Shown here one piece after another: positions 11,825 through 51,628 of a stretch of 64,000 nucleotides of DNA. The DNA is taken from positions 62,001 through 126,000 of the forward strand of contig JACRPS010000034.1 of NCBI GenBank assembly GCA_016223085.1, read 5' to 3'. Both the position numbers and the translations under genes were made by a program. Numbering within the stretch: position 1 is the stretch's first letter; every line of letters starts with the position of its first letter. Origin of the DNA: Chloroflexota bacterium (GTDB taxonomy: Bacteria; Chloroflexota; Anaerolineae; Aggregatilineales; Phototrophicaceae). Under the pieces are notes generated by a model. It saw only the letters and a list, made by a program, of their open reading frames with translations, was not told the DNA's origin and did not search any database.

Positions 11825-12027
11825 ATCTCAACCCACCGGAACAGCCTTTTGTTCTATACTGAAAGGGAGAGGAGTGCGCACCGCTACTCTCGCTGCATCT
11901 CCAAGCGAGCGAACCGTTGGGTTAGCTTATTCCAACCAAGACTTCCGGTGCGCTGGCGTTCTGGTTAGTAAACCTGTATGATTGGCACAGAATGCCAGTT
12001 CATTTTGAGCACCCTAGAGGGGGCAGT

Positions 12028-12960
12028 ATGAGCAAAGGTCGAATCCTGGTCGTCGAAGATGACTTCGACATCTCCAATATGCTGCGCATCTATTTCACCG
12101 GGCAGCAGTATGAAGTGCAGATCGCCCCGCGCGGCGGCGAAGCCCTGCAGATGACCCGGAAGCAGCTTCCCAACCTGATTATCCTGGACATCATGCTGCC
12201 GGACATGAACGGCTATGATGTTTGCCGTGAACTGCGTACTACCACCCGCACCAGCCACATCCCGATCATCTTCCTGACGCAGAAGGACGAACGCAGCGAC
12301 AAGATTGCCGGACTGGAACTGGGCGCGGACGATTACATCACCAAGCCGTTTGATATCGAAGAACTGAAGCTGCGCGTTCAGAATACCATCAACTCCACCC
12401 AGCGGCAGAACTACATGCACCCAAAGTCCGGGCTGCCAACCGGGCGGCTGATCGAAGAACACCTGCGCTCGCTCATGCATGGTGATAAGGACTGGGCCTA
12501 CATTGACCTGAAAATCAATCACTTCGATGCGTTTACCGAAGTGTATGGTTTTCTCGCCGGGGACGAGGTGATGCGCTTCACGGCGCTGGTGATGGGCGAA
12601 GTGGTGGATGAACTGGGCACGCCGGACGATTACCTGGGGCATCCCGAACGCGAGAACTTTGTCATCATCACCCATGCTGACGATGCCGAGCGGCTCAAGC
12701 AGCGGTTGGTGGAACGGTTCAACGATGAGGTGAAACAGCATTACTCGTTTATTGACCGCGAGCGCGGTTACATCCTCGTGCCGGACAGCGCTCAGGGCGA
12801 ACGCCAGGAAGCGTTGATGACGCTGGCCGCCGGGTCGGTGTCCACCCGCACGCACCAATTTTCCGATATACGCGAAATTACCGAATTGGCTGCCGAAGAC
12901 CGCCGTCGGGGTATCAGCGGAGAAGAAAACGCCGGGCCGCGAATCCTGACCTCCTGGTAG
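12028..12960 (+). CDS. Response regulator with degenerate GGDEF-like domain
   Basis: A 310-residue protein. The ATG at 12028 follows AGAGGGGG; the longer frame was rejected. The receiver domain (1-120) is complete: acidic pair EDD (10-12), phospho-acceptor Asp54 in ILDIMLPDMNG, Thr84 and Lys106 (ITKPFD). Residues 128-250 have the outline of a GGDEF domain (PKSGLPTGRLIEEHL, WAYIDLKINHFDAFTEVYG, FLAGDEVMRF), but the active loop reads HPERENFVII instead of GGDEF. It should therefore not make cyclic di-GMP and may bind a nucleotide or a partner. It lies 24 bases before the giant histidine kinase, its likely cognate sensor. Confidence 0.8.
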   Translation: MSKGRILVVEDDFDISNMLRIYFTGQQYEVQIAPRGGEALQMTRKQLPNLIILDIMLPDMNGYDVCRELRTTTRTSHIPIIFLTQKDERSDKIAGLELGADDYITKPFDIEELKLRVQNTINSTQRQNYMHPKSGLPTGRLIEEHLRSLMHGDKDWAYIDLKINHFDAFTEVYGFLAGDEVMRFTALVMGEVVDELGTPDDYLGHPERENFVIITHADDAERLKQRLVERFNDEVKQHYSFIDRERGYILVPDSAQGERQEALMTLAAGSVSTRTHQFSDIREITELAAEDRRRGISGEENAGPRILTSW

Positions 12961-12984: not shown

Positions 12985-15900
12985 ATGGGTCTGGGTGTCA
13001 TTTTATTACTGGGTGGGCTGGTTCTCACCGTCGGGTTAATCCTGTGGGCCTTGCAGCGGCAGCGCCTCGGTTATATCCCCGGCGAACAGGCCGCGCCTGC
13101 CGGAATTGACCTGCCGCTGGCCTCCAGCGAGGACGCGATTCTGGTCTCCAGGGAACACGGCCAACTGGTCTTTGTCAACGACCGCGCCCGCCGCTGGATC
13201 GGTCTAAACGGCGGCGAACCGAATCTCGAATGGATTGCCCAGCTCGCGCAGCCGGCGGACAACTTCCTTGACCTGTTTCAGCGTGAAGGGCAGGCGTCGT
13301 TCCAACTGGGGTCGCGCTGGGTGGAAGCCTCGTCGCATACCATCCCCGCCGGCGGCGAACGCCGCACCGTCGTGGTCATGCGCGAACTGAGCGCCGGCAC
13401 GACCAACCCGGAGGCGCTCGATCTATCACTGGCGATGGCGACGATCAACGAGATCGGCGAAACGGTCAACGCCAGCATGAGCATGGAGCAGTTGTTACAG
13501 GCGCTGCTGGCGATTGTGCTAAAGGCGCTGCCGGCCTCGGCGGGCGAAATCTGCCTGTGGAACGCGGAACGCACCGTGTTACAGCCGCGCGGCTGGGTGG
13601 GTGATGCGCCGTATCTGCTGGCGCTGACCGAATCCGGTGGCGCATATACGCCGGGCGAGGGCGTCACCGGCTGGATTATTAAAAATCGCAAGCCGGTGCT
13701 GGTGGCGGACGTGGACGACATAACCGCCATCCAGCCCAAGTTGACCGGTTTCTATCACAGCTTTGTCGGCGTGCCGCTGATTCTGGGCGACCGGTTGATC
13801 GGCACGCTGGAACTGGCGCACGCCAACGCCCATCATTTTAACCAGGGCAATCTGGCGCTGCTGCAGGCGATCAGCAAACCGGTGGCGACCGCGATTTACA
13901 ACGCCGAACTGTACAGCCAGCAGGCGCAGCGCATTCAGGATATGGCACTGCTGCAGGCCACCCGTCCGGCGGAAGCGGCTACCGGCGACCCCGCCCAGGT
14001 TTACGCCGCGCTGACCGAACGGATTGCCCATCTGGCCGATGCCAAAGTCTGCGGGGTGCTGCTGTACGACGAAAACCGGCAGGCGCTGCTGCCGGAACTG
14101 CCGTTTTATGGGCTGCCGGATTATGCCGCGCGCAGTTTTGTGATCGCGCTGCCGTTGGACAGCCCGCAGCGGGACATCTGGGAAAACCAGCCATACTGGG
14201 TGAGCAACGACGCGGCAGATGAGCCATTGATCGAGGCGCTGGGCCTGAAGCCGATTTTTGTGGCGGCGGGCATCCACAACATCGCCCTGATTCCGATGGA
14301 AATCGGCATCCAGCGCATCGGTCTGGTGCAGGTCGCCAACCGGCAGGCTGAGGGCGGCTTCACGTCGCAGGATATTCAGGACCTGCGGCTGCTGGTGACC
14401 CAGGCGGCAGTGGTGGTGGAAAACGTGCGGCTGTACCAGCGCGAACAGCAGCGGGATACCGAACTGGTCGGCCTGCAGGAGATGACCCACGCCATCGGCG
14501 CGTTGAGCCAGGAGGAGGAATTTTATTCCACGCTGACCGAGCGGATTGCCCGCCTGATGGATATTTCCATGTGCGGCATCCTGCTGTGGGACGAGACCAA
14601 TGAACGGCTGGTGCCACAGCTTCCGTTTTATGGTGTGCCGGATGTGATGATTCAGAACTACATCGTGAATCTGCCCACCGGCAGCCCGCTGTACACCATC
14701 TGGCAGGAAGAAGATTACTGGTACACCAACCGGGTCCAGTCGGATGCGGTGGTGTACGCCGCCGGGCTGGCCGACTTCGCCAATGCGGTCGGCGTGACCA
14801 AAACGCTGTTCGCTGTGCTGACGGTCGGCGGTCGGCGATTGGGGGTAGTGCAGGTTTCCAACAAAATCAGCGGCGAGGACTTCACCGACAAGGACGCCCG
14901 CCTGCTGCTGATCTTCGCCTCGCAGGCCGCCGCGATTATCGAAAACGCGCGGCTGTACCAGGACATCCAGCAGCGCGCGAAGGAAGCGGAACGCCTGCGC
15001 GACATCGCGGAGATGGCCGGCAGCATCCTCACCGCTGAGGATTCGTTTACCGGCGTGCTGCAAGCCATCGCCGACCTGACCGGCAGCCCGCTGGCACTTG
15101 TCAGCGTGATTGACGAGCCAGGCGGCAATCTGGTGACGTACCCACGTCTGGTCTACGGTGGCAGCCTGACCGAGCCGGGCATTTACGATCAGGGCAGCCG
15201 GGAATTTCACCGGAGCGTGGCGCTGTCGCACCAGCCGTTTTTGAGTAATCACCTGAACGCCGAAACGATGCTGGACAGCCAGCGCCATGTGGCGGAACGC
15301 CTGGGGCTGACCAGCATCGTCACCGTACCGGTAATCGTCGGTGAACGCGGCGTTGGCGAATTAAGCATCGCTAACCGCACCAAACCCTACGACAGCAACG
15401 ACCTGCGCCTGCTGGCGGCGATTGCGACCCAGATCGCGGCGACCATCGAGCGCATCCGCCTGTATGAAGCGGCGGGGCAGAACCTCCAGCGCCGTATCGA
15501 GGAACTGGACGCGATTGCCCGCATCAGCCACGAACTGACGCAGACGCTGGAACTCGACCCGGTGCTGGACGTAATTCGCCGGGAAGCGGCGCGCGCCACG
15601 CTGGCGCAGGGTGGCACAATCGTGCTGCTGAAAGCGCCCGACCGGTGGCAAAACCCCGCCATGCCGGAGATGGACAAACGCTTCGGCGTGGGGGACGGGC
15701 TGGCGGACATTGAGGTGGAGGCGGTGCTGCGCGGCGCGGATACGGTGCTGGTGCGCAATTATGCCGCTGACCCGCTGAAGCCCGCGCCGGACGACGCACA
15801 GTCTGCGATTGCCGCCGCGTTTTTCTACGAAGATCGTGTGGTTGGTGTCATCCACCTGTACCACAGCCGCGCCAAGCAGTTTGACGAGCGCACGGCGGCG

Positions 15901-18900
15901 TTTTTGCTGACCATCGCGGCGAAGGCGTCACTGGCTTACGGCAATTACAAACGTTATCAGGAACAGCTTGAACGCAGCACCCGCCTGCGGCGGCGCGTTG
16001 AGCAGTTGAACCAGATTTTTGAACTGGGACGCGTCCTGCAATCCAGCGCCGAGCCGGTCACCATGCTGGAGTCGATTCTTGACGGCATTCAGCAGAGCGT
16101 GGGCTTCGAGGTGGGTGTGGCGTCGCTGGTGGATGAGAGCGACGGTGTGCTGCGCCGCGTAGCCCAGGCTGGTATGCCGCTGGAAGCGTTTGAGCGCAGC
16201 CGTAAACACGCCCTGACGTTGGACGAGTTCCACCGGCTGATGCGCGACGACTACCGCCTCAGCGAGTCCTACTTTATCCCCGCCGAGGCGCGGCGCGGCT
16301 GGAAGCAGGCGGCGCTGCGCGCCTTCAGCACCGGCTTTGAGGGCAGCCGCGCGCTGCCGGAAGCCGCCAACGAGCGCGACTGGCGCGACGGTGATCTGCT
16401 GGTGCTGCCGCTGGTTGGTTCCGGCGGCAACCTGCTGGGCGCGATCACCCTGGACAGGCCGCTGGATAACGCCCGCCCGGACCGCCCGACCGTCGAAATT
16501 CTGGAAATCTTCGCCCATCAGGCGGCGGCCACGATTGAAAATAACCGCCTGTACCGCGCCACGCTGCACAACGCCGAGCAGGAAGCCCGGCTGAACGCCA
16601 TTATGGAAGCCGTGACCAAAACGCTGGACACCGGCCAGATCGTCGAGGCGGTGGCTTACGGCGCGTCGCGGCTGCTGCCGGTGATGCAGATGACGGTGGC
16701 GCTGCTGGATGTGGAACAGCAGGGGTATGACATCCTGAAGGTGACGTTTACCCGTGATAACACGCCGGTGCTGGCAAAAGAACACCGGGCGCACATTGAT
16801 GGCACGGCGCTGGCGCGGACGTTCCAGGATGGGCAGGATTACCTGTATTACGCCGGCGAACCGGATGCCGTCCATTATGACGATCTGCGCGCCTGGCATG
16901 GGCGCGGCGAGCGCACCAGCCTGATCGTGCCGCTGGTGGTCGGCGGTGTGATTCTGGGCGCGCTGCACCTGGGCAGCGCTGAGGAACGCGCTTTTAACTT
17001 CAGCGAACACCGCCCGCTGCTGAAGCGTATGGCGAACCTGTCGGCCGTGGCGATTGAAAACGCGCGGCTGTTCAACCGCGCGCTGAACCTGCAAACCTTC
17101 AACGAATCGGTTGTAGAGTCCATCCAGCAGGGCATCATCGTGCTGGACAAGTCCGGGCGTATCCTGTCGGTTAATGCTACCATGTCGCAGCGGTATGGCT
17201 GGGACGCGGACAGGGCCGTGCGCCAGGATTTGTTTGCCTATGACCCGGAACTGGCCGTGCTGGCCGACGACCTGCGGCTGGTGCTGGACATGGGCACACC
17301 GCGCGAGCGCATCTGGCAGCAGACGGTGGACGACGACCAGCTGGTGGTGCGGAACTTTTACCTGTACCCCCTCCGCAGTGCCGATGGCGTGCGCGGCGCG
17401 GTGCTGCTGGTTGAAGACGTGACCGAACGTGCCCAACTGGAACGCGATGTGGAAGCCCGCGCCAACCAGTTGGCTGTGCTGACGGAAGTCTCCAGCCGTA
17501 TTACAGCCTCGCTCAACCGGCACGAAGTGATTGACCTGGCGCTGGGCGAACTGGGGCGCATCATCCATTATGATACCCTGACACTGTGGACGCGGCAGGC
17601 AGATTATCTGGTGCTGGAAGGCTTCCGGGGCTTCGATGAAGCAACGATTGAGCCGGGGGTGCAGGTGGCGATTCAGTCGCACGACCGGCTGCGGATTGTG
17701 GTCGAAACCCAGCGCCCGTATGCCATCAATAATTTGCAGCATCGGGATTACCTGCCCGGCGAAAAAGACGTATTAAGCTGGATGGGCGTGCCGCTGGTGA
17801 ACCAGGGCACTGTCGTCGGCGTGATCGCGCTGGCGAAGTCGCAGCCGCGCTTTTACGGGCAGCAGCTTCAGCAGGCCGCCTTTGCCTTCGCCAACCAGAT
17901 GGCGGTCGCGCTGGCAAACGCCGACCTGTACGCCGAATCGCAGCGCCGCACCGAACGCCTCAGCCTGCTTAACCGCGTGTCGGTGGCGCTGGCGCAGTCG
18001 CTGGACAGTGAAAACATCCTGGAAATCGCCCTGCGGGAAATCGCTGGCGTGATGGGCGTAGAGCAGGGGCGGGCGCTGCTGTTCGAGCGCGAACTCCAGA
18101 TTGGCCGCGTGATCGTCAAACACCCGCGCGGTGACGCCCCGCCGGAAGAATTTGTGAACCTGATCGAAAGCGCCATCTACCAGCAGATGCGCCGCACTAC
18201 CGAGCCGATTGTGTACGAGGATGTCAACGGCCTGACGCGCGACGACCCGGTGGTGATGGAACTAGGCCCGCGTGGCATCACGGCCTTTGTGGTTATTCCG
18301 ATGACGGTTGGCGGTCAGGTGATCGGCACGTTTGAACTGGAAGTGCTGGACGGACCGCGCCGGTTTGCGTCGGAGCAGATGGAACTGGGGCAGATCATCG
18401 CCAACCAGGCGGCGATTGCCGTGCAGAACACCAACCTGCTGGAACAGACGCTGGTCCGCACCCGCGAACTGGAAACGCTGCTGGAAGCGGCGCAGGCTAC
18501 TTCGCTCACGCTTAACCTGGACGAGGTGTTCCAGAGCGTAGTGGCGCTGATGCTCCACGCCCTGGACATGGACGACTGCGCGGTGATGCTGTGGGACAAT
18601 GTGGAAAACGTGCTGGAAGTGGAAGTGGAAGTGAACCGCTTTGGCGACCCGCGCCGCACCGTGCCGCATGGCACGGTCTACAACCTGCGCGAGTACCCGG
18701 CGCGGCTGAAGGCGCTGCAGGAGCGCGAGGTGATCGTCATCCGTGCCGACAATCCAGGCGCGGACGCCACCGAACTGGACCTGCTGCGGCGCAACGGCGA
18801 TCAACTCCGCGTGCTGATTCCGCTGATCGTGCGCGATCAGGCAATTGGTCTGGCGCAGGTTGAAACGCAGATGCAGCACCGCACCTTCGGCCATCGGGAA

Positions 18901-21195
18901 ATCCGGCTGGCGCAGGCGCTGGGGTCGCAGGCGGCCATCGCCATCCAGAATGCGCGCCTGTCAACCGAGACGGCGGCGCTGGTGGAAGAAGGCTTCATTA
19001 TCAACAACCTCAGCACGGCGATTTCGTCCACCCTGACGCTCGACGACATCATCACCATCGTGCGCGACCAGATACCGCGTGTCACCGATGCCGAGGAAAT
19101 GTACCTGGCGCTGTACAATGCCGAAGCCCAGACGATTGACTTCCCGGTGGCCGTCCGGCGCGATGGCAGCGAGTTTTCGATCCCGTCGCGCCCGTTGGGG
19201 CGGGATGAGGTGTCGTTTGTGATTAAGCACCGCCGGTCGCTGCCGCTGGGTGGCGGCAACTGGTCGTCAGACGAGATGCGCCGCAACCTGGGCATTGATA
19301 ACGGCGAGGGAGATGCCAAGAGCTATCTGGGTGTGCCGATTGTGGCTGGTGACCAGGTGCTGGGTGTTCTGGCTGTGCGCGACTCGACCACGCCACGCGC
19401 CTTTGGCATCAACGACGAACGCCTGCTGACAACGGTCGGGGCGCAGTTGGGCGCAGCTATTCAGAACGCACGTTTGTTCGAGCAGGTCAGCACCTTCGCC
19501 AGTGAACTGAACCAGCGCGTGCAGGAGCGCACGCAGGAATTGCAGGAACGCTCGCAGGAACTCCAGCGCGAGCGCGACCGGATTGACACGCTCTACCGCA
19601 TCACGTCTGACCTGGCGACCACGCTCGATATGGACCGGGTGCTGCATCGCGCGCTCGAACTGGTCGCCGGGGCGGTCAGCGCCGACGATGGCGTGATTAT
19701 GCTGGTTGACCCAATGACCGACAAGCTGTACAGCCGCGCCCTGCTGAATCAGGAGGACTCCAGCAGTATCCGGCAGCCGACGCACCCGGCGGAAGGGCTG
19801 GCGCGCTGGCTCATCCAGTACGGTGGGCAGCACGTGGTGGTGGACGAACTGCACGGCAGGGACTACTGGGACACGTCTATCGCCGGGGCGGACGTCTGGC
19901 ACAGCGCGGTCGCCGTGCTGCTGGAAAATAACGACGACGTACATGGCGTGATGGTGCTGCTCAGCCGGACACCCGGCGTCTTCACCGACACGCAGATCAA
20001 GCTGATTATCGCGGCGGCCAACCAGGTGGCGGCGGCGATTTACAACGCCGAGCTGTACCACCTTATCCGCGACCAGGCCGAACGGCTGGGCGTGCTGGTG
20101 CGGCAGGAACGCGAAGAAACGGAAAAGAGCAATGCGATCGTCGAGGGGATTGCCGACGGCGTGATGCTGGCCGACGCCGACGGTGTGATTGTGCTGTTTA
20201 ACAGCGCCGCCGAGCATATCCTTGATCTCCCCCGCGATAACGTCATTGGCCAGACGATCTTTAAGCTGTCCGGTCTGTTTGGCGAATCGGCGGCGCTGTG
20301 GACGCGTGCGATTGAAGAATGGGCGCGCGACCCGGAACGCCACCGCCCCGGCGATTTCCTGGCGGAAACGCTCGATCTGGGGCGGCGCGTGGTGAGCGTC
20401 CACCTGTCGCCGGTGCATATCAGCGACCGCTTCCTGGGTACGGTGTCGGTCTTCCGGGACATCACCAAGGAAGTGGAAGTGGACCGCATCAAAAGCGAGT
20501 TTGTATCGAACGTATCACACGAACTGCGCACGCCGATGACCAGCATCAAGGGTTTTGCCGATCTGCTGCTGCTGGGCGTGGCCGGGCAGATGACAGAACA
20601 GCAGCAGAACTTCCTGCAGAAGATCAAGAGCAACGCCGACCGCCTGAGCCAACTGGTGGACGACCTGCTGAACATCTCGAAGCTGGATGCGGGCGAACGG
20701 CTGAACCCGGAGCTGGTGGACGTGGGGCAGGTGATTACCAACGTGGTCGCCACGCTGCGCGGCAAGGCGCACCACGAACGCAAGGATTTGCAGGTCACGG
20801 TGGATACACCGCCGTCGCTGCCGATGATCCAGGCCGACCCGCACAAGCTGACGCAGATCGTCACCAACCTGGTGGACAATGCTTTTAATTACACCTATGA
20901 CGGTGGTAGTATTGACATTACCGCCAGCGTGCAGCCAGACGGTGAGCATATCCTCATCAGTGTTAAGGATACCGGTATCGGCATACCGGAAGAATTCCGT
21001 TCCCGCATCTGGCAGCGGTTTGAACGGTATGACGATCATGCCCTGGTGATGGACGTAGCCGGCACCGGACTGGGACTGTCCATCGTCAGGGAACTGGTGG
21101 AAATGCACAACGGGGAAGTCTGGTTTGAGTCGGAAATTGGCAAGGGCACAACCTTCTTTGTCTCCCTGCCGGTAGACCAGCCGGGCGTTCATTAA
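12985..21195 (+). CDS. Giant histidine kinase with about twelve GAF and three PAS domains
   Basis: A 2736-residue protein in one unbroken frame. An N-terminal membrane helix (GVILLLGGLVLTVGLILW) leads to a PAS-like unit (about 50-140). GAF domains start near residues 148, 322, 491, 669, 837, 1004 and 1201. A PAS follows at 1369-1480, then GAFs near 1490, 1654, 1825 and 1996, a coiled coil (2171-2200), a GAF at 2199-2355 and a PAS at 2382-2485. The kinase core has the H-box VSHELRTPM (His2512), N-box NLVDNAFNY, G1 DTGIGIP and G2 GTGLGLS. It has no receiver domain of its own; two response regulators flank it. Such GAF arrays can bind small ligands or chromophores, but no bilin-type Cys motif was spotted. 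Confidence 0.9.
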   Translation: MGLGVILLLGGLVLTVGLILWALQRQRLGYIPGEQAAPAGIDLPLASSEDAILVSREHGQLVFVNDRARRWIGLNGGEPNLEWIAQLAQPADNFLDLFQREGQASFQLGSRWVEASSHTIPAGGERRTVVVMRELSAGTTNPEALDLSLAMATINEIGETVNASMSMEQLLQALLAIVLKALPASAGEICLWNAERTVLQPRGWVGDAPYLLALTESGGAYTPGEGVTGWIIKNRKPVLVADVDDITAIQPKLTGFYHSFVGVPLILGDRLIGTLELAHANAHHFNQGNLALLQAISKPVATAIYNAELYSQQAQRIQDMALLQATRPAEAATGDPAQVYAALTERIAHLADAKVCGVLLYDENRQALLPELPFYGLPDYAARSFVIALPLDSPQRDIWENQPYWVSNDAADEPLIEALGLKPIFVAAGIHNIALIPMEIGIQRIGLVQVANRQAEGGFTSQDIQDLRLLVTQAAVVVENVRLYQREQQRDTELVGLQEMTHAIGALSQEEEFYSTLTERIARLMDISMCGILLWDETNERLVPQLPFYGVPDVMIQNYIVNLPTGSPLYTIWQEEDYWYTNRVQSDAVVYAAGLADFANAVGVTKTLFAVLTVGGRRLGVVQVSNKISGEDFTDKDARLLLIFASQAAAIIENARLYQDIQQRAKEAERLRDIAEMAGSILTAEDSFTGVLQAIADLTGSPLALVSVIDEPGGNLVTYPRLVYGGSLTEPGIYDQGSREFHRSVALSHQPFLSNHLNAETMLDSQRHVAERLGLTSIVTVPVIVGERGVGELSIANRTKPYDSNDLRLLAAIATQIAATIERIRLYEAAGQNLQRRIEELDAIARISHELTQTLELDPVLDVIRREAARATLAQGGTIVLLKAPDRWQNPAMPEMDKRFGVGDGLADIEVEAVLRGADTVLVRNYAADPLKPAPDDAQSAIAAAFFYEDRVVGVIHLYHSRAKQFDERTAAFLLTIAAKASLAYGNYKRYQEQLERSTRLRRRVEQLNQIFELGRVLQSSAEPVTMLESILDGIQQSVGFEVGVASLVDESDGVLRRVAQAGMPLEAFERSRKHALTLDEFHRLMRDDYRLSESYFIPAEARRGWKQAALRAFSTGFEGSRALPEAANERDWRDGDLLVLPLVGSGGNLLGAITLDRPLDNARPDRPTVEILEIFAHQAAATIENNRLYRATLHNAEQEARLNAIMEAVTKTLDTGQIVEAVAYGASRLLPVMQMTVALLDVEQQGYDILKVTFTRDNTPVLAKEHRAHIDGTALARTFQDGQDYLYYAGEPDAVHYDDLRAWHGRGERTSLIVPLVVGGVILGALHLGSAEERAFNFSEHRPLLKRMANLSAVAIENARLFNRALNLQTFNESVVESIQQGIIVLDKSGRILSVNATMSQRYGWDADRAVRQDLFAYDPELAVLADDLRLVLDMGTPRERIWQQTVDDDQLVVRNFYLYPLRSADGVRGAVLLVEDVTERAQLERDVEARANQLAVLTEVSSRITASLNRHEVIDLALGELGRIIHYDTLTLWTRQADYLVLEGFRGFDEATIEPGVQVAIQSHDRLRIVVETQRPYAINNLQHRDYLPGEKDVLSWMGVPLVNQGTVVGVIALAKSQPRFYGQQLQQAAFAFANQMAVALANADLYAESQRRTERLSLLNRVSVALAQSLDSENILEIALREIAGVMGVEQGRALLFERELQIGRVIVKHPRGDAPPEEFVNLIESAIYQQMRRTTEPIVYEDVNGLTRDDPVVMELGPRGITAFVVIPMTVGGQVIGTFELEVLDGPRRFASEQMELGQIIANQAAIAVQNTNLLEQTLVRTRELETLLEAAQATSLTLNLDEVFQSVVALMLHALDMDDCAVMLWDNVENVLEVEVEVNRFGDPRRTVPHGTVYNLREYPARLKALQEREVIVIRADNPGADATELDLLRRNGDQLRVLIPLIVRDQAIGLAQVETQMQHRTFGHREIRLAQALGSQAAIAIQNARLSTETAALVEEGFIINNLSTAISSTLTLDDIITIVRDQIPRVTDAEEMYLALYNAEAQTIDFPVAVRRDGSEFSIPSRPLGRDEVSFVIKHRRSLPLGGGNWSSDEMRRNLGIDNGEGDAKSYLGVPIVAGDQVLGVLAVRDSTTPRAFGINDERLLTTVGAQLGAAIQNARLFEQVSTFASELNQRVQERTQELQERSQELQRERDRIDTLYRITSDLATTLDMDRVLHRALELVAGAVSADDGVIMLVDPMTDKLYSRALLNQEDSSSIRQPTHPAEGLARWLIQYGGQHVVVDELHGRDYWDTSIAGADVWHSAVAVLLENNDDVHGVMVLLSRTPGVFTDTQIKLIIAAANQVAAAIYNAELYHLIRDQAERLGVLVRQEREETEKSNAIVEGIADGVMLADADGVIVLFNSAAEHILDLPRDNVIGQTIFKLSGLFGESAALWTRAIEEWARDPERHRPGDFLAETLDLGRRVVSVHLSPVHISDRFLGTVSVFRDITKEVEVDRIKSEFVSNVSHELRTPMTSIKGFADLLLLGVAGQMTEQQQNFLQKIKSNADRLSQLVDDLLNISKLDAGERLNPELVDVGQVITNVVATLRGKAHHERKDLQVTVDTPPSLPMIQADPHKLTQIVTNLVDNAFNYTYDGGSIDITASVQPDGEHILISVKDTGIGIPEEFRSRIWQRFERYDDHALVMDVAGTGLGLSIVRELVEMHNGEVWFESEIGKGTTFFVSLPVDQPGVH

Positions 21196-50525: not shown

Positions 50526-50541
50526 TGTAGACTGGTCTACA
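50526..50541. terminator. Short palindrome at the TIR-UDG stop
   Basis: TGTAGAC-TG-GTCTACA is a perfect 7-base-arm palindrome that includes the TAG stop of the TIR-UDG gene. It may be a shortened GTAG-type repeat or a simple 3' hairpin. Confidence 0.45.
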
Positions 50542-51628
50542 GGAACAGCTTCAGCTTCTCAAAATCCTGCCGCAGCGTTTCCTTCTGGCTGGCGCTGTAG
50601 AGTACAACGGCGGGGTGATACAGCGGCACGACGTGGATTTCGCCGTAGGGCAGGCGCGTTTTTATCAGCTTGCCGTGGAGCTGGCTGATCTTGCCGCGTT
50701 TCTCCGGCAAATCCAGCTTTTTGAGCATATATGACATGGCAAAGCCGCCCAGCGTGGCGATCACCGCCGGCTGGATGATGTCAATGATGCGGTCAACAAA
50801 TGGCGCGTAGAAGGCCAGTTCTTCCGGCAGCGGGTCGCGTTTGCCAGGAAAATCGAGCAGCACGTTGGTTACATATACGTCGTCGCGCTTCAGGCCGATG
50901 CCGCGTAGCATTTCCGCCAGCACGTCGCCGGATGGCCCGATGAACGGTCGCCCGGTGGCCGCTTCGTTTTTGCCCGGCGCTTCGCCGATGAACAGGATAT
51001 TGGCATCCGGGTTGCCCTCGCCCAGCACCGGAAAGTGCCGGTTTTCGATACGGTATGTGTACAGCGGGGATGAGGTTGCGCCCACCAGATCGTCGCGCAC
51101 GGCCTTCAGCGCCGCTTCCTTTTGGCGCAGCGTCTCGGAGTTGGCGCGGCCTTTGAACGAGGGATTGGCGGGAATGGCGCTTTTGATGGCAGTAGCCAGT
51201 TTTTCGACATCGCGTGAAAAATGCTGGTGGCTGAGTTCAACCGCGTTGCGGCGGCACAACGGGTGCAACTCATCCGGCAAATCGTTGGGGGAGGGCATCC
51301 GCGCCCGCCCGACCAGCACGGGAATCACCAGCTTGTTCTGCCGGAGCGCGCTGGCGATTTCAATCCGCACGAAGTCGTTCCACTGGTGCAGTCGCCGTTC
51401 GCCGGCATCGTCGGCGCAGTTCAGCCAGCCGGGGCCGATCACGGCGATCAGCACGTCACAGGATGCGACCGCATCTTCCAGCACCTGCACGAAGTCGGCG
51501 CCGGGCGGGATGCTGTCCACGTCCATAAACAGGTCGTCGCGCTGAAAGTGCTGCGCCAGATGATCGTAGAGGCGGCCAACGTACCCTTCGCTGTCCTGCC
51601 GGCGGTAGTTGATGAAGATGCGACTCAT
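50537..51628 (-). CDS. TIR domain fused to a cysteine-less family-4-like uracil-DNA glycosylase
   Basis: A 363-residue protein in one clean frame. Residues 1-150 are a TIR domain: RIFINYRRQDSEGYVGRLYD, the BB loop MDVDSIPPGADF, CDVLIAVIGPGWL and the helix NDFVRIEIASAL, where Glu90 is in the place of the catalytic Glu of NAD-cleaving TIRs. A linker (150-182) leads to the UDG domain: GEGNPDANILFIGEAPGKNE (motif A about 215-222), GRPFIGPSGDVLAEML and the late motif YHPAVVL (His338). Family 4/5 UDGs usually hold four cysteines; here they appear as Ala184, Ser187, Asp259 and Tyr274, so no iron-sulfur cluster is expected. Inferred role: recognition of uracil or modified bases coupled to TIR signalling, as in anti-phage systems. 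Neighbours give no further clue. Confidence 0.8.
   Translation of the reverse strand: MSRIFINYRRQDSEGYVGRLYDHLAQHFQRDDLFMDVDSIPPGADFVQVLEDAVASCDVLIAVIGPGWLNCADDAGERRLHQWNDFVRIEIASALRQNKLVIPVLVGRARMPSPNDLPDELHPLCRRNAVELSHQHFSRDVEKLATAIKSAIPANPSFKGRANSETLRQKEAALKAVRDDLVGATSSPLYTYRIENRHFPVLGEGNPDANILFIGEAPGKNEAATGRPFIGPSGDVLAEMLRGIGLKRDDVYVTNVLLDFPGKRDPLPEELAFYAPFVDRIIDIIQPAVIATLGGFAMSYMLKKLDLPEKRGKISQLHGKLIKTRLPYGEIHVVPLYHPAVVLYSASQKETLRQDFEKLKLFL

Follow-up and report, generated by a model that had tools for sequence, protein, structure and literature searches.

Could one small bacterial protein read altered bases in DNA and answer them through NAD? This question is raised by a gene in a 64,000-nucleotide stretch of DNA from a Chloroflexota bacterium (hereafter, the window, meaning the whole stretch that was analyzed). 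The first-pass annotation, made from the letters alone, described one frame joining a TIR domain to a family-4-like uracil-DNA glycosylase (UDG) domain without iron-sulfur cysteines, and proposed a compact, undescribed system that could sense uracil or odd bases and then deplete NAD, in the manner of anti-phage strategies. Domain models, predicted structures, comparative genomics and gene neighborhoods were used here to examine that proposal.

A single gene joins a TIR domain to a UDG domain

The gene and its main parts are located in the window as follows.

50537..51628, minus strand: TIR-UDG fusion gene, 363 aa; 40/154 genomes of the order hold the fusion
51200..51619, minus strand: TIR domain (Pfam TIR_2), residues 4-143; Pfam match and SARM1 TIR fold match
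51359..51361, minus strand: Glu90, putative NADase catalytic Glu (SARM1 Glu642); 39/39 covering fusions
51125..51178, minus strand: linker, approximately residues 151-168, from the AF2 model; pLDDT <50 at residues 154-157, its least confident stretch
50540..51124, minus strand: UDG domain, residues 169-363; Pfam and NCBIfam matches and 4zbx fold match

The frame runs from 51628 to 50537 on the minus strand (no strand had been given before), with 363 codons, an ATG start and zero internal stops, and its translation contains the previously named UDG motifs GEAPGKNE, GRPFIGPSG and YHPAVVL, as well as NDFVRIEIASAL. Profile searches and structure prediction for both halves, as the first-pass annotation had advised, agree on the domain content. 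Residues 4-143 match Pfam TIR_2 (2.7e-12, 47.7 bits; cut-off 28) and residues 203-354 match Pfam UDG (1.1e-29, 103.7 bits; cut-off 24.3), a strong match that answers the earlier concern that the second half might lack one. The NCBIfam model UDG_fam4 (TIGR00758) assigns the protein to UDG family 4 at 160 bits, above the curated cut-off of 125.3. In an AF2 model based on 23 aligned fusions (mean pLDDT 89.7), both halves are confident, while their mutual placement is without confidence (pTM 0.59). The UDG half superimposes on the family-4 UDG of S. tokodaii, 4zbx (Z 29.2, rmsd 1.5, 187 residues, 37% identity), and the TIR half on the TIR domain of SARM1 (Z 18.2, rmsd 2.1, 135 residues). Hence, family model and fold both place the UDG half in family 4, while the four [4Fe-4S] ligands of that family are missing.

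The TIR half combines the fold of a TIR NADase with its catalytic Glu. Glu90, singled out in the first reading as the putative catalytic residue, aligns with the Glu of SARM1 DWVHKEI and is kept in all 39 fusion sequences covering the position. It lies opposite SARM1 Glu642 (numbering counted along the alignment from SARM1 position 564 of the 724-residue chain, which stands opposite residue 4), the residue changed in PDB 7cm7 according to the title of that structure. The two proteins differ in what accompanies the TIR domain, as SARM1 carries ARM and SAM domains whereas the partner in the fusion is a C-terminal UDG.

Distribution and integrity of the fusion

The fusion was found in 2/400 genomes drawn from the phylum, 5/396 drawn from the class, 40/154 of the order, 29/98 of the window's family and 10/17 of its genus, and every fusion seen belongs to the order Aggregatilineales. 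This gives the frequency that the first-pass annotation had wanted counted and disposes of its worry that relatives might lack the fused TIR. In the named collection, the best 79 of 246 confirmed stretches comprised 35 fusions and 44 stretches with their best domain match in one half, with 166 weaker confirmed stretches lying outside this count. Both halves are under purifying selection, with dN/dS of 0.02-0.20 in each across nine pairs (synonymous change being near saturation in some pairs). An assembly join or frameshift between the halves, also considered at first reading, is ruled out, because the fusion recurs in independent assemblies and both halves show these low ratios. A few copies are incomplete: the fusion in G489 starts within the TIR half (match from residue 76, frame from residue 98) and may be truncated, and among fusions at contig ends, that of G399 starts at residue 58 and the matches in G432 and G475 end at residues 310 and 337.

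A phage or plasmid origin was considered and rejected: no match in plasmid and phage records covered 80% of the fusion query, and 17 pattern matches in the scanned viral contigs yielded zero confirmed relatives. A full-length tree of the fusions (excluding L109) was poorly resolved, with most deep forks lacking support; the AU test weakly rejected a single clade for the fusions of the window's family (p 0.028), suggesting that the fusion has at times passed between families. TIR domains like that of the fusion abound in these genomes and bear a wide variety of tails. At L150, L153, L159 and L161, for instance, a TIR close to that of the fusion precedes a C-terminal half that, by eye, resembles a formylglycine-generating-enzyme domain.

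The missing cysteines mark an older UDG clade

The places of the four iron-sulfur ligands are occupied as follows.

51077..51079, minus strand: Ala184, place of cluster ligand 1; A 38, S 1, F 1 of 40 fusions
51068..51070, minus strand: Ser187, place of cluster ligand 2; S 39, A 1 of 40 fusions
50852..50854, minus strand: Asp259, place of cluster ligand 3; D in 40/40 fusions and 20/20 stand-alone relatives
50807..50809, minus strand: Tyr274, place of cluster ligand 4; Y in 40/40 fusions and 20/20 stand-alone relatives

These four residues, proposed earlier from the sequence of one protein, were borne out by alignment with canonical family-4 UDGs, in which all 14 sequences carry Cys, Cys, Cys (10) or His (4), and Cys in the corresponding columns. 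None of the 40 fusions and none of the 20 aligned stand-alone relatives has a cysteine in any of the four columns, the stand-alone relatives reading Leu, Ser, Asp and Tyr (the 20 stand-alone and 14 canonical UDGs being a selection from many more matches). Since the cysteines are absent in 20/20 stand-alone relatives too, their loss predates the fusion, and the idea that it was an adaptation to the fusion was rejected. The lack of cysteines is thus no peculiarity of the fusion but a trait of an older clade, made up of UDGs encoded alone in Chloroflexota and certain candidate-phylum (CPR) bacteria. In a quick tree of 91 UDG domains, the cysteine-less sequences split from the canonical ones (SH-aLRT 98), and the 38 fusions used (all but L104 and L108, which are cut at the 3′ end) formed one clade (SH-aLRT 99) inside the cysteine-less group, so that the cluster was lost first and the TIR domain then probably added once, within the cysteine-less UDG clade. 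The curated family-4 model accepts 3/3 stand-alone cysteine-less proteins tested. Stand-alone UDGs with the same four ligand places occur in Curtissbacteria, Doudnabacteria and Microgenomates (L197, L198, L200 and L203), pointing to a wide cysteine-less branch of family-4-like UDGs.

Absence of the cluster need not mean absence of catalysis. In the excerpted text of PMC5295032, Cys-to-Ser changes in two family-4 enzymes removed only about 40% of activity; because of this, and because the pocket is nearly intact (see below), glycosylase activity without the cluster is plausible.

Two further observations concern the wider family. In otherwise canonical family-4 UDGs, His replaces the third cluster cysteine (KHRPP) at L005:1489-2136 and also at L137, L144, L221 and L236; this variant accounts for 4/14 of the aligned canonical sequences and was seen by eye at two archaeal loci. 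Genome G019 holds the fusion together with a stand-alone cysteine-less UDG (L128, G019:C168), a canonical UDG and two weaker UDG-superfamily matches, one of which carries a stop and adjoins the stand-alone gene.

The UDG pocket is nearly intact

The residues expected to form the base-binding pocket were located as follows.

50972..50986, minus strand: UDG motif A GEAPG, residues 215-219; Glu216 is E in 35/40 and Q in 5/40 fusions
50963..50965, minus strand: Glu222, pocket-side Glu following motif A; 40/40 fusions
50942..50944, minus strand: Phe229, stacking residue (Phe55 of S. tokodaii UDG); 40/40 fusions
50864..50869, minus strand: Thr254-Asn255, with Asn255 opposite Asn82 of S. tokodaii UDG; 40/40 fusions
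50615..50617, minus strand: His338 of motif B (YHPA); 38/38 covering fusions

In the quoted portions of PMC11078745, from which the S. tokodaii residues were taken, Phe55 has a stacking role, Asn82 is named, and Tyr170 is DNA-binding according to the title of a structure paper in the reference list; Tyr344, opposite Tyr170, is kept in 37/38 fusions. By these alignments, nearly all pocket residues of the fusions are kept. Two deviations were noted: Glu216 is replaced by Gln in 5/40 fusions, compared to 0/20 stand-alone and 0/14 canonical sequences aligned, a change that would suit a binder more than an excising enzyme, and in the window protein and the two sequences closest to it the loop DFPGKRDP is shorter by one residue. 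In fold, pocket residues and the GEAPG and HPA motifs, the UDG half therefore resembles 4zbx, from which it differs by its missing cluster cysteines and its N-terminal TIR. Membership in family 7 (UdgX) was rejected: the folds are related (Z 23.8), whereas motif A reads GEAPG rather than GEQP, the family-7 motif according to the part of PMC5295032 consulted, and the UdgX model TIGR03914 scores 87.9 bits against a cut-off of 189.95.

Genomic context

In the window, the fusion gene is preceded by a gene for a membrane glycosyltransferase-like protein and followed by globin, ArsA-type ATPase and ABC1 kinase genes (Pfam), and a Pfam scan of ten neighbors revealed no defense gene. Contexts differ across the 40 fusion loci. 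PADLOC matches among 124 neighbor proteins were scattered, with at most three for any one family (raw count), and, as the first-pass annotation had stated for this locus, no clear defense island is apparent around the fusion.

A recurrent association was observed with TAG, the 3-methyladenine DNA glycosylase gene, which is found no further than 7.5 kb downstream of the fusion gene in 9/40 genomes and, in four of them, no more than 50 nt away on the same strand. The chance expectation is about 0.09 among the 30 fusion genomes with TAG, a figure that assumes 5.8 Mb per genome and ignores kinship, all nine linked genomes being in one family. By tblastn, TAG was found at 9/40 fusion loci as opposed to 0/20 stand-alone UDG loci. 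The linkage spans eight genera, all of family f1, and may reflect shared descent; the window's own genome gave no match to TAG. Among the two nearest neighbors per side (n = 124; proteins of <110 or >700 residues left out, genes called by a longest-frame rule), the commonest were glutamine synthetase (5), dual-specificity phosphatase (5), YegS-type kinase (4) and TAG (3); the TAG gene beside the fusion in G424 was missed by these calls and found by a separate search. The glutamine synthetase matches seemingly form a five-locus cluster of the window's genus (matched by count), and none was present in eight other neighbors of similar size that were scanned. The most widely recurring neighbor is thus a base-repair gene, and this favors DNA damage as a trigger no less than phage. 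Another UDG-superfamily gene is present in 38/40 fusion genomes, and the fusion is therefore not the sole candidate for uracil repair in its hosts.

Among individual loci, a YegS-type lipid kinase gene begins 22-30 nt after the fusion at L075, L076, L078 and L079 of the window's genus, and a dual-specificity phosphatase gene lies downstream at the same four loci and at L093 and L095 of another family. Elsewhere in the window, a gene at 12985-21195 (plus strand) specifies a sensor kinase of 2736 residues in which roughly ten GAF domains accompany PAS, HisKA and HATPase domains; ahead of it, at 11992-12960, lies a response regulator gene that matches GGDEF weakly.

Comparison with known systems

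Sensor-TIR effectors known to us answer nucleotide messengers, proteins or guided nucleic-acid recognition. As far as their summary descriptions go, TIR-STING, the CARF-TIR protein Cat1 and short Argonautes with TIR share with the fusion a sensor coupled to a TIR effector and differ in answering nucleotide messengers or guided nucleic-acid recognition; in the fusion, the putative sensor would be a base-reading repair fold. Membership in Thoeris as ThcB4 was rejected, with model NF058526 giving 46.9 bits against a curated cut-off of 220. The TIR half matches PADLOC ThsB1 (3.3e-11) over only 66 of 396 model positions, and ThsA is not among the 25 listed of the 39 PADLOC families matching the 124 neighbors. 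On the glycosylase side, Brig1 and Brig3 (PMC11078745, PMC13160076), set beside the fusion by their descriptions only, also act on altered DNA bases, and Brig1, a member of the UDG superfamily, protects against phage and has a ThsA-like gene nearby (PMC11078745, in excerpt); their defense, in contrast, consists of base excision. A term search of these two texts gave no mention of a TIR fusion, and neither a TIR-UDG fusion nor a cysteine-less family-4 clade is described in the available parts of PMC5295032 and PMC9266487. More generally, no description of the TIR-UDG fusion, consistent with the earlier impression of novelty, or of the cysteine-less clade was found in the open-licence literature, subscription papers lying outside the search.

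Function of the fusion

With two conserved active sites in one chain, the simplest reading is a sensor of altered bases joined to an NAD-using effector. The fusion is best explained, with a probability of about one half, as a single-gene sensor-effector whose TIR NADase is activated when the UDG half meets an altered base. Derived from family 4 but cluster-free, with its pocket nearly intact, this UDG half would bind uracil in DNA, or an altered base akin to it, and probably still excise it. Its engagement on DNA, or the gathering of several molecules where alterations are dense, would bring TIR halves together and thereby start them cleaving NAD or making an ADP-ribose signal; base damage or foreign DNA chemistry would then end in arrested growth or an alarm that runs on NAD. 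What we infer here is that the TIR half is an NADase, that uracil is the ligand, that DNA activates the protein, and what follows for the cell. As to the trigger, the TAG linkage tilts the sensor-effector reading slightly toward base damage in the cell's own DNA, which is at least as likely as phage or plasmid DNA, both being put forward tentatively. Weighing against a sensor-effector, the TIR domain may be attached for other reasons, such TIRs carrying many different tails, and the TAG linkage is limited to 9/40 genomes of one family, with glutamine synthetase and phosphatase genes commoner among the nearest neighbors. What stands of the first-pass interpretation is the domain content, the Glu, the absent cysteines and the lack of a clear island; its anti-phage slant and its emphasis on cysteine loss fare less well, as the loss is older than the fusion and TAG points at least as much to damage as to phage.

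Alternatively, the protein could be a repair glycosylase whose TIR half is merely a scaffold or oligomerization domain without NAD chemistry. A nearly intact UDG pocket, and a same-strand TAG gene immediately following the fusion in four genomes, would be expected of such an enzyme; retention of Glu90 in 39/39 sequences, the additional UDG-superfamily gene in 38/40 genomes and the existence of stand-alone cysteine-less UDGs that do without a TIR make this explanation rather unlikely.

Abortive-infection defense, in which recognition of uracil-rich or otherwise modified phage DNA through the UDG half would lead the TIR half to kill or stall the infected cell, corresponds to the phage branch of the sensor-effector reading and is compatible with it. 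The patchy presence of the fusion (40/154 genomes of the order, 10/17 of the genus), its varied gene contexts, the transfer between families suggested by the AU test, the partial ThsB1 match and the Brig1 precedent are all in keeping with a defense gene. Nevertheless, the commonest PADLOC family reaches 3/124 neighbors (raw count), no plasmid or phage record matched at the coverage given above, no relative was confirmed in viral contigs, and the TAG linkage points to base repair, leaving this role doubtful. A UDG half that anchors the protein to DNA whatever the base, with TIR activation arising from another cause, would agree with the Gln variants and the shortened loop but is improbable in view of the invariant Glu222, Phe229, Asn255 and His338 and of a UDG-half dN/dS as low as that of the TIR half.

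Implications

Returning to the sensor-effector reading, a more specific form of it, advanced with reserve, would make the fusion a bacterial counterpart, by logic rather than by descent, of NAD consumers activated by DNA damage, such as PARP1: a lesion- or uracil-reading glycosylase domain, drawn from a cluster-free family-4 branch, would directly switch on a TIR NADase of the same chain. In the cysteine-less UDG clade to which the fusion belongs, nature offers a way to test the purpose of the family-4 iron-sulfur cluster, and the fusion itself is one small, testable gene. If the sensor-effector reading is true, a repair fold would let a TIR domain read DNA bases, and NAD metabolism would be coupled directly to base damage or DNA modification.
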